Positions 3,602-33,260 of a stretch of DNA of 34,772 nucleotides are shown here, piece after piece. Origin of the DNA: Candidatus Niyogibacteria bacterium CG10_big_fil_rev_8_21_14_0_10_46_36. Lineage in GTDB: Bacteria > Patescibacteriota > Minisyncoccia > 1-14-0-10-42-19. Where the stretch lies: positions 1 through 34,772 of the forward strand of contig PFCO01000006.1 of the NCBI GenBank assembly GCA_002772995.1, read 5' to 3'. The position numbers and the translations under genes were made by a program. Numbering within the stretch: position 1 is the stretch's first letter; each line of letters begins with the position of its first letter. The notes under the pieces are model-generated. The model was not told the DNA's origin. It did not search any database and saw only the letters and a program-made list of their open reading frames with translations.

Positions 3602-4733
3602 TATATATATTCTGTACTTGTTCAAACATCTGTTCAATACGAAATTCTTTTTGTATCTTTTCGTAAAGCGCTTCGCTGAAGTGGGTGCGCAGTGCCGCGT
3701 TATCCATAAGCATCTGTATATGATTTGTGAGCGTAAATTCATCCCCGGCTGCCGCTAAAAGCCCTGTCTTTCCGCCGTGGATGATTTCGGGTACGCCGCC
3801 TACCTCAGAAGCGATAACCGGGAGTTTTGCTGAGCCTGCTTCTAGAAGCGCATACGGAAATCCCTCTTTTAACGAGGGGAGTATAAAAATATCAAATGCT
3901 TTTAAGAGTGAGGACGCAGTATCGATGTGCCCCGCAAGAATGATGTTGTTTTCAAGACCGAAGCGCCGTATTTCTTTTTCAAGCGCTTCACGCTCTTCTC
4001 CTTCGCCGATAATAATGCATGTCCAGCTTCGCTCAGGGATACGCCCGAGTGCGCGTATAAGATGCGGGATGCCTTTGTTTTTCGTGAGTTCCGCAATCGT
4101 TCCTATCCATACAGAGCGGGGCGCGGGCGCTAGGCCGTATTCCTTTTTAAAATAAGCGCGCGCTTTTGTTTTTTCAATAAATTCGGGTTCTACGATGGCA
4201 TTTTTTATCGTGGAACTTTTTTTGTCCGCAAACGGAAGTTTTTTTGCCGCGCGCTTATCGTAATCAGATACGCAGATAATCTTGTGGTGCATAAGAGAAG
4301 ACACCCACGACGAAAGATAGATCAGGTGCTTCTGCCAGAACGGGCGTTCCTCATGGAATGCCCAGCCGTGCGCAGTAAAGACTATGCGCGGAACACCGGC
4401 GAGGCGCGCTGCAAGCGCTCCCACACCCCCCATTTTAGAACTATTTAAGTGGACGATATCAGGTTTTTCTTTGCGGAAAAGCTTCCAAAGCGCTCCAAAT
4501 GTCTTGAGCTCCTGGATAATGCCAACTCTGCGTGTTGTAGCAAATGTATGCACGGGAATGCCTGCTTTGCGCATTTTCTCGGGGAGCAGGCCTTCGTTTC
4601 CCATGACGGCCTGCACCGCATACCCGCTCTTGGGCAAGCGAGTAGCTATATCGTAAAGATAGCGTTGCGCTCCGCCCCAGTGGGAGCGGGTTATGGCAAG
4701 GATTATTTTTTTCTTTTTAGGAGATGCAGTCAT
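3594..4733 (-). CDS. GT4 family glycosyltransferase
   Basis: A 379-residue GT-B fold enzyme that would transfer a sugar from a nucleotide donor to a lipid-linked or glycan acceptor at the inner membrane. The N-terminal domain begins ITRSHWGGAQRYLYDIA, typical of the acceptor-side domain; the C-terminal domain has IGTIAELTKNKG, IIGEGEE and the donor-binding KEGFPYALLEAGSAKLPVIAS segment, with the spaced glutamates of the E-x7-E motif. Length is normal. It starts 2 nt after the stop of the sugar-phosphate transferase gene, so the two form an operon for one surface glycan, this enzyme adding a sugar after the first is primed. The exact sugar cannot be read. Confidence 0.9.
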   Translation of the reverse strand: MTASPKKKKIILAITRSHWGGAQRYLYDIATRLPKSGYAVQAVMGNEGLLPEKMRKAGIPVHTFATTRRVGIIQELKTFGALWKLFRKEKPDIVHLNSSKMGGVGALAARLAGVPRIVFTAHGWAFHEERPFWQKHLIYLSSWVSSLMHHKIICVSDYDKRAAKKLPFADKKSSTIKNAIVEPEFIEKTKARAYFKKEYGLAPAPRSVWIGTIAELTKNKGIPHLIRALGRIPERSWTCIIIGEGEEREALEKEIRRFGLENNIILAGHIDTASSLLKAFDIFILPSLKEGFPYALLEAGSAKLPVIASEVGGVPEIIHGGKTGLLAAAGDEFTLTNHIQMLMDNAALRTHFSEALYEKIQKEFRIEQMFEQVQNIYKK

Positions 4734-6311: not shown

Positions 6312-7412
6312 ATGAGACGGTCTATAGCAGTGATGGCTATACTATTTGCGCTATTTTCTTTTTATCCGGCGCATGCGGGGAAAAACAAAGAACCCGAGGC
6401 GTGCGGACCGAACAACACGCAGCAGTCTCTTGTAAGGAACGGAACATTTTTGTTTTCTGACCGCGACAAGAACGCTGTTTCAAGCGGCGTCGTGTATCAG
6501 ATAATTCCTTTGCAGCCGGACGGTTTTGAGACGATTGTTGTTCATTCTCATCCGAGCAACAGTAAAGACCCGCGTACAAATGTCGCTTTTGCGATATTTG
6601 AGTGGAGTTGTGATAAACAAGGAGTCCGTCTCGAAGACATTGAACAGTGCGGACGCTTCTGGCAGTACTACGCGGGTATGGATGAGGATTTCCGCGAGGC
6701 GTATGTGTATGAGGTAAAGAGTCATGAAGTTGTTCCGGATTTGCGCAGGGGCAAGGTGTGGGCGATTGATGCTCGTGTTGTGACCCGATGGGTGAGAGAA
6801 GGCCCACAGGAAAATATTTACGCGAACAAGGCTTTTCTCCGTAATCAAATTACCGGGGAATTTGATCTTATTCATGAGCGTAGATTTTTTAACAGAAATC
6901 ACTGTCCTCAGGGCCAAGATGACCCGCGCGAGGGCGCACATGAACGGATAGAGTTTTTTACGGACACATTCCCGAGATTCTATGCGGTGGGTTTTGCCAA
7001 TATGTTCACGGTTAAGATAAACGGCAACCGGGAGCGTATACTGTTTTATTCCTATAACGACGGCCTGTACAACTTCGCAAACTTCTGGGACTATCCGTAT
7101 GCAATTCGGGGAACTCCCGCGGATTTTCTGATGTTTTATGACAAAAAAGAGAAGACATCAAACGACGCACAGCCAGGCGGCGGTTCGTGGGTGGGCCTCA
7201 ACAGAGACAGAATAGTGTCCATGCAAAATCCTCCATCCGCGCAAGACCCTATCATCGATAACCCGTTCTCTACTCTTTACTCTGAAGAGATGCCAGAGGC
7301 GGCAGAAGCGTCTAGCGATGCTTTGCCGAGCGTATACCGCTGGGTAGAAGAGCGCGAGCGTCTTGGGGTAACCGAGTTGCCTGAAGACATTCAAGACTCA
7401 CTAAATTACTAA
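6312..7412 (+). CDS. secreted protein of unknown function
   Basis: A 366-residue protein with a clear signal peptide (MRRSIAVMAILFALFSFYPAHA, cleavage after AHA). The start is set by AGGAGG about eight nucleotides upstream. The mature part has four early or central cysteines (CGPNN, WSCDK, EQCGR, NHCPQ), which could form disulfides outside the membrane, and many aromatic residues (FWQYYAGMDEDF, NFANFWDYPYAI), suggesting a compact beta-rich domain, followed by an acidic C-terminal region. I recognise no family. It has its own consensus promoter and intrinsic terminator, so it is monocistronic. Periplasmic, wall or extracellular location is inferred from the signal peptide. Confidence 0.8.
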   Translation: MRRSIAVMAILFALFSFYPAHAGKNKEPEACGPNNTQQSLVRNGTFLFSDRDKNAVSSGVVYQIIPLQPDGFETIVVHSHPSNSKDPRTNVAFAIFEWSCDKQGVRLEDIEQCGRFWQYYAGMDEDFREAYVYEVKSHEVVPDLRRGKVWAIDARVVTRWVREGPQENIYANKAFLRNQITGEFDLIHERRFFNRNHCPQGQDDPREGAHERIEFFTDTFPRFYAVGFANMFTVKINGNRERILFYSYNDGLYNFANFWDYPYAIRGTPADFLMFYDKKEKTSNDAQPGGGSWVGLNRDRIVSMQNPPSAQDPIIDNPFSTLYSEEMPEAAEASSDALPSVYRWVEERERLGVTELPEDIQDSLNY

Positions 7413-7416
7413 ACAA

Positions 7417-7456
7417 AAAGAGCCAAGGAAATTTTCCTCGGCTCTTTATTTTTTTG
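7417..7456 (+). terminator. intrinsic terminator
   Basis: AAAGAGCC (7417-7424) pairs with GGCTCTTT (7440-7447) over an AAGGAA/TTCCTC inner stem, then a long T-run. Confidence 0.9.
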
Positions 7457-28325: not shown

Positions 28326-30896
28326 TTACCTTGTCTCGTAGAGCTTCGTGGTGTCGAACGGAGTCTTTTGTTTTTCTCCGGTGCTTCCCATTGCGCTTCC
28401 GAAAGACCGGTAGTTTTTCCCGGTAGAGGAGAATTGAGGAGTGGCAACGCCATAGGTTTTCGTCAGGGCGCGTATAATCTTTAGCGCGATGTCCTTTGTC
28501 GCAAATGCAACCCGGTCGCGTTCGCTGTCCTGTATTCCCCAGAAGACCATGCCGCTCGTTGCGTCAGCCATCTTGCTGATACTGCTCGGAGCTTTAAGAT
28601 CCGCTATGCGCCCATTCTTGTACACGATGTATTCTTGCCCCTTTATCCCGAATGGGTCAAAGATGAATACCGGCGTGATAACAATTGACTGTTTAACGCA
28701 TGCTGTAAGAAGTTCATCCAGTTTTCCGTGACGGATGGTTTCTATGCCGTCAGTTATCGGCACAAGAAATGTGAGCATTTCTCCATAACGGCTGATGCGT
28801 TCTTTGATGCGCAGCAATACCGTTTCTAGCATGAACTCGATATCTGTTGCGCCCTTGCAGTCAGTAGAACTGATCATCTTCTCTATCTTTGAGATATCGG
28901 GAGAAAGGAATTTCATTTGCTCTGCAAAAGCAATTTCTTGCTCAGCTGAGAAATATTTCTGTTCACTGAAATCAATGTGAGCGTAGGAGAAATCCCTCCC
29001 TACTCCTTCTCTGCATATTGCAAGAGCGGTCTGCGAGCCCCAGCGAGCAAGGTTGCCCTTGGTCGCAAGCGTTCCTTTCCCTACTACCTCGCCTGCCATG
29101 GAGTACGAGCGGTCTTTTGCGGTAATGATGCAGATTTCAGGAACCGTGCGCACCTTCACCAGCGGTTTTGGCGCTCCCGAGTCAATAAACTCGGGGATTC
29201 GTGAAGGCTCCGCTTTGCGGATTTCTTCAAGATTTTTTATCGGCTTTCTGTAAGATATTTCTCCCCGGCGATGATGTGTCTTTTTTTTCTGGACTTGAAA
29301 ATCATCCTTAAGGCGGTCTATCTCTTCAAGGAAGAGCATGACACTCTCGGCGGTCTCAAAGTTTTTTATGCCTTGGATATCGATGTCCGTTTCCGGGCCT
29401 GCTTCTTCTGACTGCGATGTGGAAAGCTCAACCGTAGGTTCCTGCTGGTCAAGGAAAAAGTCATTGAGCGATATTTTTTTATCTGGTGCTCCTTTTTCGC
29501 GTCTCCCTTCGGACTTTTTGTCTTCCGGCGTGAGGCGCTCTTCTCCCTTTTTTTCTTTTTTTCTCGGGGGTTCCTGGTTTTTGAGATTGTCTGCGGGCGG
29601 AGGAGTTTTTTGTTCCTGTTTGGGTGGGGGATTGTTCTCAAAGCTTCCTTCAAACGGCTTTTCGGATGTCGCTTCGCGCAGCTCTTCGTGCGAGTGTATC
29701 CGCGAGAGCTTGTCTTTCGCGGTCACAAAAAGAGATTTTATCTCCGCAAAGAACGCTTCCGCCTTCGCTTCGATCTCCGCAATGCGCATTTCAAATTCCT
29801 TTTGCTGGTCATCATGGCCGATGCCATGGTCCACCGTTTCTTTTAGCTTGTCCAGCTCATCGAGCAATTCTGCTGTTTCTTTTGTGTACGCATGATGTTT
29901 CAGCGTATCTATAAAGAGGTCGACCACATGGTTTATCTGCTTTCGCTGGTCTTTTGTTTCTACTCGGTGAGTGATGTACCCGTACATGAAAAGAAAATCA
30001 TCCCACGCTATCTCAGTCCGGCCTTCAAAGAGGGCGTGCGCACGCAAGAGCTTATGGAGCTTTACAATCGCCGCACGGTCAGTTAACACCGCATCTTCCT
30101 CGTGGAATCCCTGGGTCTCGATAACGATGTCGAGGAGAGAGACAAGCGCCCAGGTCATAACAAGCGGAACCCGGATCTTCGGGCTGCTCCCGCCTATATA
30201 TTCGTATGCCTTGTCCAGATCCTCCTTGCTTACTTTTGCTTTTGGAGCTGCGTCCAGAAGGTTTTCCGGCCAAGTACGCGACCGTCTCATTGCTTCACGG
30301 AGGTTTTTAAACCTCTTTTTGAATATGAGGTTTCTGCAAAACACGCCAAGCGAGAATCTGTCGATAACCTGTTCTTCAAGCAGTTTGGATGATCTGCTTT
30401 TCGGATTTGCGGCAGCAATGAGCTGGCGCATGGAAGAGGGGGTCCATTCCTCTTTCTTGGTTGACGGATTGAAATATTCGTATCTTCCTTCGTTTAAAAT
30501 AGGAAGAAGAACATTCATAATCTCGTCGGGTGCGCGCGTAATCTCATCAAAGAAACCCGTATCACACCGGAGAAAACAGCCTGGCTCAAAACTCTCAAAT
30601 ATCTTCTCTTCTTCTTTTCCGTGGCCGAGGTCGGTTTTTTCGCGGACAAGAACGGCGGGTCCTATGATTTGATTTATGGTCATCTCATTTGTTCCCTGTA
30701 CATGGTGAAGGCGCAAGCTTGTTGCATGCGCTATCAGTTCGCTTGATAGTGTTTTAGCAGTTCCTGTCGGTCCGATGATAAGCATGCTTTCCTTGGCAAG
30801 AAAACTTATCGGGAGGAATTTTTTCAATCCCTCCTGTCCTTCGATAAATTTATCCAGAGCATCATAAAGAAATTTTCCTATCTCTGTTACTTTCAT
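28326..30896 (-). CDS. MoxR-type AAA+ ATPase fused to a VWA domain
   Basis: An 856-residue single chain. The N-terminal part is a MoxR/RavA-like AAA+ ATPase: Walker A GPTGTAKT (42-49), Walker B FFDEIT (115-120), sensor segment LIAAANPKSRS and VIDRFSLGVF with the arginine finger. A charged linker rich in Lys, Glu and Pro (about 420-500) follows. The C-terminal 270 residues are a VWA domain with an intact MIDAS metal site: DRSYS (595-599), Thr in GATDIE, Asp in ITDG. MoxR and VWA proteins usually occur as neighbouring genes (RavA-ViaA, CobS-CobT) that act as metal-insertion or chaperone machines; here both are in one polypeptide. GGGAGG sets the start; a structured leader precedes it. Confidence 0.9.
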   Translation of the reverse strand: MKVTEIGKFLYDALDKFIEGQEGLKKFLPISFLAKESMLIIGPTGTAKTLSSELIAHATSLRLHHVQGTNEMTINQIIGPAVLVREKTDLGHGKEEEKIFESFEPGCFLRCDTGFFDEITRAPDEIMNVLLPILNEGRYEYFNPSTKKEEWTPSSMRQLIAAANPKSRSSKLLEEQVIDRFSLGVFCRNLIFKKRFKNLREAMRRSRTWPENLLDAAPKAKVSKEDLDKAYEYIGGSSPKIRVPLVMTWALVSLLDIVIETQGFHEEDAVLTDRAAIVKLHKLLRAHALFEGRTEIAWDDFLFMYGYITHRVETKDQRKQINHVVDLFIDTLKHHAYTKETAELLDELDKLKETVDHGIGHDDQQKEFEMRIAEIEAKAEAFFAEIKSLFVTAKDKLSRIHSHEELREATSEKPFEGSFENNPPPKQEQKTPPPADNLKNQEPPRKKEKKGEERLTPEDKKSEGRREKGAPDKKISLNDFFLDQQEPTVELSTSQSEEAGPETDIDIQGIKNFETAESVMLFLEEIDRLKDDFQVQKKKTHHRRGEISYRKPIKNLEEIRKAEPSRIPEFIDSGAPKPLVKVRTVPEICIITAKDRSYSMAGEVVGKGTLATKGNLARWGSQTALAICREGVGRDFSYAHIDFSEQKYFSAEQEIAFAEQMKFLSPDISKIEKMISSTDCKGATDIEFMLETVLLRIKERISRYGEMLTFLVPITDGIETIRHGKLDELLTACVKQSIVITPVFIFDPFGIKGQEYIVYKNGRIADLKAPSSISKMADATSGMVFWGIQDSERDRVAFATKDIALKIIRALTKTYGVATPQFSSTGKNYRSFGSAMGSTGEKQKTPFDTTKLYETR

Positions 30897-30904
30897 GATG
30901 TCCT

Positions 30905-31096
30905 CCCTGTATCCGTGTTGGTTGTATTTTTAATGTTCAGTACTTGCCTTTTACAGAAAAAGGCAAGTTGGGTACCGATCCGATTCTTCCAGAGGAGGGG
31001 AGTGCATACACTTCTCCCGTCCTACGTAGGGATAGAATGGGTCAGGTAGTGCCTAACTTGCCCTTTCCTTTCTGATAGGTATTGCCTATGTAATTT
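30905..31096 (-). ncRNA. structured 5' leader RNA of the MoxR-VWA gene
   Basis: The predicted transcript starts near 31096 and runs about 200 nt to the ATG. On the minus strand GGCAAGTT (31055-31062) can close a roughly 100-nt domain with AACTTGCC (30962-30969). The same AACTTGCC can instead form an 11-bp hairpin with the following AAAAGGCAAGT (30942-30952 on the plus strand): the two folds exclude each other, as in riboswitches and attenuators. Inner hairpins include TTAGG/CCTGA, AGTG/CACT and the palindrome CCTACGTAGG. A CCTCC inside the domain could pair with the GGAGG ribosome binding site. No known riboswitch class recognised. Confidence 0.6.
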
Positions 31097-31102
31097 GGCT
31101 TT

Positions 31103-31130
31103 ATTGTACTAAATCTCAATAGATTGTCAA
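31103..31130 (-). promoter_or_regulatory. promoter of the MoxR-VWA leader
   Basis: Minus-strand TTGACA (31125-31130), 16-nt spacer, TACAAT (31103-31108). Confidence 0.85.
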
Positions 31131-31184: not shown

Positions 31185-31294
31185 AAAAAAAAAGAGGGGC
31201 GTAACCGCTTTGTAAGCGTTGCCCCTCATTGATTTGTAGCGTCCCCCGGACGCTTTTGTGATTACTGCACCGTCTTACAGACGCGTGCCTCAAG
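31185..31294 (-). ncRNA. candidate small RNA, about 110 nt
   Basis: A complete small transcription unit with no plausible ORF. The promoter (31300-31328) predicts a start near 31294. Three stems follow on the minus strand: GCAC-CGTCT/AGACG-GTGC, AGCGTCC/GGACGCT with a GGG loop, and a terminator GAGGGGC/GCCCCTC followed by nine T's (31185-31193). Single-stranded stretches are A-rich (AATCACAAAA, ACAAATCAATG). It does not resemble tRNA, 5S, 6S, SRP or tmRNA that I can see. Function unknown; it lies between the 16S gene and the MoxR-VWA leader. Confidence 0.65.
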
Positions 31295-31299
31295 TCTCA

Positions 31300-31328
31300 A
31301 ATATAACAAACATGTAAGCATGTGTCAA
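31300..31328 (-). promoter_or_regulatory. promoter of the candidate small RNA
   Basis: Minus-strand TTGACA (31323-31328), 17-nt spacer, TATATT (31300-31305). Confidence 0.88.
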
Positions 31329-31339
31329 TTAAGAAAAAT

Positions 31340-31386
31340 AAAAAAGGCGCTCTTACTGCTTACCATAAGCAGGGCGCCTTTTGCAC
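31340..31386. terminator. two-layer hairpin terminator
   Basis: AAAAGGCGC (31342-31350) pairs with GCGCCTTTT (31374-31382) outside a CTGCTTA/TAAGCAG inner stem. Read on the minus strand it is followed by a T-run, acting as a backup terminator after 16S and insulating the small RNA promoter. The roughly 65 nt between it and the next terminator show nothing recognisable. Confidence 0.75.
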
Positions 31387-31478: not shown

Positions 31479-31485
31479 GTAATAT

Positions 31486-31504
31486 GCATTTTCTTTTGTT
31501 CCGT
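31486..31504 (-). repeat. 3' arm of the 16S processing stem
   Basis: These 19 bases are the exact reverse complement of 33201-33219 before the 16S gene. In the transcript they pair, closing the 16S precursor into a stalk of the kind cut by RNase III. Confidence 0.85.
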
Positions 31505-31612
31505 CCGGTCGCGATTTGAGGCTCCGCGACCAACACCTATTACTCCCAGAGGAAGTATCGCCTAACTGTTCCGATTCTTCTTTGATGAAATCAAATGAAT
31601 ATCGGAAATAGT

Positions 31613-33170
<1,558 letters not shown>

Positions 33171-33177
33171 AATTGCA

Positions 33178-33219
33178 TACGAATATGCAATTCGGATAGA
33201 ACGGAACAAAAGAAAATGC
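33178..33219 (-). repeat. 5' arm of the 16S processing stem and adjacent hairpin
   Basis: Bases 33201-33219 pair exactly with 31486-31504. Between this arm and the 16S 5' end is a 10-bp hairpin, GAATTGCATA/TATGCAATTC, with a TTCG loop (about 33171-33194). Confidence 0.8.
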
Positions 33220-33260
33220 GTATTTCTTCTTTTGCTCTGGTATTCGGTTGTTAATGTATC

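Follow-up and report, generated by a model that had tools for sequence, protein, structure and literature searches.

A candidate genus-restricted small RNA gene between the 16S rRNA gene and a MoxR-type AAA gene in Candidatus Niyogibacteria

Intergenic trans-encoded small RNAs of bacteria are the closest described counterparts of the locus presented here, a promoter-to-terminator unit that lies behind the 16S rRNA gene of an uncultured bacterium. The unit shares with them a promoter of its own, a length of ~100 nt, hairpins, a Rho-independent terminator and the lack of an open reading frame; it differs in having no conserved seed between congeners. 6S RNA is also a small RNA read from a housekeeping promoter, is in a similar size range, and forms a rod with a central bubble. 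The unit, in contrast, is predicted to form three separate hairpins, and it has no match to the 6S family (RF00013) in Rfam. The small SRP RNA (RF00169) and 5S rRNA (RF00001) have comparable lengths (~100–120 nt), and 5S genes are commonly found near rRNA genes. However, the ends of the unit do not pair together, and there is no Rfam match to either family. The tRNA genes found behind 16S genes in the same class resemble the unit in promoter, length (~100 nt) and a T-run at a comparable place (e.g. locus L041), but no tRNA is found in the window.

The source genome, Candidatus Niyogibacteria bacterium CG10_big_fil_rev_8_21_14_0_10_46_36, is assembled into 827 kb on 11 contigs, and the order to which it belongs is represented by 4 genomes in the comparison set. 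Its size, the 16S insertions and the genes it carries point to a member of the Patescibacteria/CPR. The window, i.e. the whole stretch of DNA analysed, is 34,772 nt in length and is part of contig 6. Read along the minus strand, the 16S gene (33170–31613) is followed by a simple terminator (31480–31451), a composite hairpin with T's (~31384–31347), a promoter (31328–31300), an RNA of ~107 nt, a run of nine T's, a second promoter, a leader and an AAA gene. The features are as follows.

31613..33170, minus strand: 16S rRNA gene, upstream of the small RNA unit (RF00177, 1392 bits)
31300..31328, minus strand: promoter of the small RNA unit (TTGACA at 31328–31323, 17-nt spacer, TATATT at 31305–31300)
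31185..31293, minus strand: predicted small RNA, ~107 nt (fold z −4.5, no Rfam match, no credible open reading frame)
31267..31288, minus strand: stem-loop 1 (SL1), 9 bp with one bulge and a 3-nt loop, the same in MFE and centroid folds
31238..31254, minus strand: stem-loop 2 (SL2), 7 bp with a 3-nt loop, the same in MFE and centroid folds
31185..31227, minus strand: intrinsic terminator, with a 7-bp outer stem, bulges, a 5-bp inner stem and nine T's
31103..31130, minus strand: second promoter, belonging to the MoxR-type AAA/VWA gene downstream (TTGACA-16-TACAAT; TTGACA-16-TAGAAT at the equivalent place in the congener, L009)
30897..31102, minus strand: structured leader of the AAA gene, outside the small RNA (156/194 identical to L009; fold z −2.59)
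28326..30896, minus strand: downstream gene, a MoxR-type AAA ATPase of 856 aa (Pfam AAA_5 8e-18, bpMoxR 2.1e-9)

The original prediction described a TTGACA-17-TATATT promoter followed after about 110 nt by a hairpin and nine T's, with two stable stems between them. Its coordinates are exact, the unit being on the minus strand, and the two stems reappear as SL1 and SL2. The promoter agrees with the consensus at 11/12 positions and has a TG upstream of the −10; the start of the RNA at ~31293 is set from the position of the −10. In the MFE fold the terminator hairpin (SL3) occupies 31227–31194 and the nine T's 31193–31185. The whole RNA folds at −41.7 kcal/mol, which is 4.5 sd better than dinucleotide shuffles (0/200 and 0/1000 as good). 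With the terminator removed, z is −3.47, and 6/1000 shuffles do as well. A lone 11/12 promoter is unremarkable (3 promoter-like sites observed in 2 kb against 2.8 expected), but promoter and terminator together are less common. In a stricter scan across the 34.8-kb window there are three promoter–terminator pairs spaced 40–250 nt apart, of which the small RNA unit alone combines a T-run >5 with a hairpin below −12 kcal/mol.

The unit matches no described RNA family, as had been supposed. Searched at gathering score with Rfam 15, the whole window shows the 16S gene alone, and the unit has no match. A permissive Rfam search of 711 nt yielded sub-threshold matches only. The best E-value was for mir-92 on the plus strand at 30983–31034, outside the unit, and the sole match on the strand of the unit was STnc290 (18.4 bits against a gathering score of 60, E 1.8). 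A DNA search of its own genome, the genus and the congeners returned the unit itself and nothing else, and phage and plasmid collections gave no match. A covariance model of the window RNA (R1, built from this single sequence) has no convincing match beyond itself. Weak R1 matches in G001 and G000:C9 were folded and discarded, as neither forms a three-stem unit with a T-run. A literature search on small RNAs in this bacterial group, confined to titles, found none on the point.

A contig scan with the AAA protein located one further locus, L009 (contig G002:C6), in the same genus, and the comparison that bears on the unit is thus between two genomes, the window and L009. The order in L009 is 16S, its terminator, a promoter, an RNA of ~95 nt, TTGACA-16-TAGAAT and the AAA leader. 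The unit promoter is TTGACA-17-TATCAT (4581–4609), again 11/12 to consensus, and the RNA has two hairpins and a strong composite terminator built like that of the window, with eight T's. The stricter scan misses this homologous terminator because two bases precede its T-run; a corrected scan recovers it. Window and congener share, at equivalent positions, a promoter of housekeeping type and a strong intrinsic terminator that enclose no open reading frame.

The location of the unit, flanked by the 16S gene and by a gene that has a structured leader, had been called suggestive, though possibly due to chance. As the position is repeated in the one congener that has the locus, it is not a one-genome accident. 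The arrangement does not extend to another genus of the family (G003), where 16S is followed by a glutaredoxin-like gene, as read from the translated frame, with no such unit. The assembled sequence of a further genome of the same genus (G001, 80% complete) lacks both the 16S gene and the AAA gene. Of 285 class genomes, 2 encode the AAA protein, with 77–78% identity between the window and the congener. A promoter of at least 10/12 followed by a terminator within 40–160 nt was sought behind 47 16S genes with ≥500 nt of downstream sequence. Three of the 47 matched: the window, L009 and L041. By sequence reading the L041 match is an ordinary tRNA gene, and the unit with a strong terminator is found in the window and L009 only.

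Conservation between the two genomes is uneven, the promoter and terminator of the unit being above the chance level. The 16S trailer has 120/133 identities and the AAA leader 156/194 (z 16.9). The small RNA promoter has 18/29 (global z 3.4), the terminator 31/39 (z 4.1), the spacer to the second promoter 31/51 (z 3.0) and the second (AAA) promoter 17/28 (z 3.4). The RNA body without its terminator has 31/58 identities (z −0.87). This is at shuffle level, and the body sequence is therefore not conserved; the best local alignment of the two bodies is a shared 7-nt word, which is at chance level.

On the persistence of the stems in relatives, which the original prediction had made its test, the picture is mixed. 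Two hairpins and a composite terminator recur, and the shapes are closer than those of shuffles, but the body sequence is unconserved and R1 scores the L009 unit at background level (7.7 bits, E 7.2 in 68 kb); a whole-genome R1 search of G002 gave no match. The L009 RNA as a whole folds better than 1000/1000 shuffles, and without the terminator z is −2.14 (34/1000 as good). The MFE shape distance between the window and L009 is 38, against 57.9 ± 9.9 (7/500) and 55.9 ± 10.7 (28/500) with one body shuffled, a modest result and one among several tests. Exactly two hairpins are also formed by 184/300 and 141/300 shuffles, and two hairpins alone are not special. Nor is the terminator build, since composite terminators are found elsewhere in the window. 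An outer stem, bulges and an inner stem are shared by several, at 7361–7456 (a match to R1), 31347–31384 and, in the unit itself, 31194–31227.

The interpretation preferred here, tentatively and at a little under an even chance, is that the unit encodes a small noncoding RNA of ~107 nt on its own and is restricted to the genus, with selection on the start, the stop and perhaps the shape, but not on the sequence. The unit would be transcribed constitutively, and the transcript would end before the AAA gene, which has a promoter of its own. If active, the RNA might work through its row of hairpins, for example as a protein-bound RNA recognized by structure, with no fixed base-pairing seed. That selection acts on the hairpin row alone, with promoter, terminator and shape kept while the sequence turns over completely, is a rather improbable extension. 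At present the unit is an ordinary orphan small RNA candidate. A transcript from it would represent a small noncoding RNA in an uncultured lineage with small genomes; the fast turnover would then be a warning that sequence conservation cannot find such RNAs in this lineage.

Nearly as likely as a small RNA gene is an orphan promoter–terminator pair, a relic of a small gene (a tRNA or a short open reading frame) or an insulator behind 16S, which would yield a short transcript under no selection; this has a substantial, if somewhat lower, probability. The body diverges as unconstrained DNA would, and the spacer beyond it is no less well kept. In addition, a promoter, tRNA and terminator stand behind 16S elsewhere in the class (L041), and L057 also has a tRNA there. 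On the other hand, an intact 11/12 promoter and a strong terminator have persisted in each genome while the neighbouring protein fell to 77% identity, and both bodies fold better than shuffles. ARAGORN, moreover, finds no tRNA or tmRNA in the window.

The promoter type is ordinary for the group, as the promoter DNA of the L009 unit matches class promoters elsewhere. A DNA search of 285 class genomes with the L009 unit gave weak matches, and most of those inspected are promoters, including that of an ordinary gene in its own genome and that of a tRNA gene. Promoters of this kind also stand before genes and tRNAs in further genomes of the class. Judged from these sequences, the weak matches reflect promoter type and not the RNA.

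The unit may also be looked at as a transcription attenuator, i.e. a distal promoter and a regulated terminator for the AAA/VWA gene. Strand and order are shared with that gene, and in both genomes the T-run is 50–60 nt before its −35. Yet a separate promoter and leader precede the AAA gene in each of the two genomes, and there is no ligand- or peptide-like conserved part. No competing fold is seen either, and ~10 kcal/mol is needed in both genomes to free the 3′ arm of the hairpin (−38.0 versus −27.2; −36.8 versus −26.4). A base-pairing small RNA that acts on the neighbouring leader or on other mRNAs would fit the general kinship with terminator-bearing intergenic small RNAs of bacteria, as well as the single-stranded stretches between the stems. 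However, pairing with the AAA leader does not exceed that of shuffles in either genome, and the bodies have no conserved seed-like stretch, the shared 7-nt word being no more than expected by chance. Given the lack of an antiterminator and of excess leader pairing, and the separate promoter of the AAA gene, neither attenuation nor local antisense control is likely; a base-pairing role in general is slightly less probable than attenuation. A small protein gene is scarcely credible, as the original prediction had it: an 83-codon frame with a TTG start does open inside the unit, but it extends past both the terminator and the second promoter, has no Pfam family match, and opens in body DNA that the congener has not conserved.

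The AAA leader (30897–31102, minus strand; 4792–5000 in L009) is far better kept than the small RNA. Its ends can pair in a long closing stem, GGAAAGGGCAAGUU/AACUUGCCUUUUUC, in competition with the hairpin CUUGCCUUUU..AAAAGGCAAG, and the leader is a riboswitch-like candidate.

Of interest also is a covarying hairpin in the 16S trailer (31505–31539, minus strand; consensus GUGUURGUC-NNN-GGAGCC..AAAU-NNN-GACY). It is in the stretch from 16S to the first terminator (31612–31481), which is 90% identical in L009. A pattern search finds hairpins of this type in 21/49 trailers against 8/980 shuffled trailers. When 20 of these were aligned (the 21 less L074), 95% of cells were paired and 7/8 pairs had changed on both sides, whereas slid controls reached at most 45%. 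A covariance model has matches in 37/112 class genomes (E ≤ 0.05). Of the 30 best-scoring matches, 24 share a contig with a listed 16S gene, and 24/24 are downstream of it on the same strand, 20 at a distance of 31–98 nt and 4 at 576–1138 nt; the remaining 6 are 4–553 nt from a contig start. These matches include most of the 20 training sequences, which match by construction. No Rfam 15 family covers the window site, and a literature search on 16S trailers in this group found no paper. The trailer hairpin may matter more than the small RNA, because it is sited where the 3′ end of the rRNA is made and is found class-wide. In addition, GACGGAACAAAAGAAAATGC behind 16S (31481–31505) is complementary to GCATTTTCTTTTGTTCCGTTC before it (33200–33240, minus-strand reading), and the two are likely to form a 16S processing stem that encloses the hairpin.

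The 3′ end of 16S (31613–31640) also deserves mention. The genes of the window, L009 and G003 end in GGATCATTATC.. or GGATTATTAAA.., without the CCTCC anti-Shine-Dalgarno motif. CCTCC is present in 21/55 readable class 16S ends (8 further loci are unreadable), or 21/53 after omission of a duplicate (L089) and a too-short end (L087). The exact motif is thus missing from 32/53 informative class ends, some of which keep a partial CTCC. Several window genes have GGAGG before the start codon, despite a 16S without CCTCC. The small RNA was considered as a source of the missing anti-Shine-Dalgarno and rejected, as CCTCC is absent from both the window and the L009 RNAs. Finally, the 16S genes of the window (31983–32062, ~75 nt) and L009 have insertions near the same site, and the 16S match is 2236 nt in length in L009 versus 1558 nt in the window.
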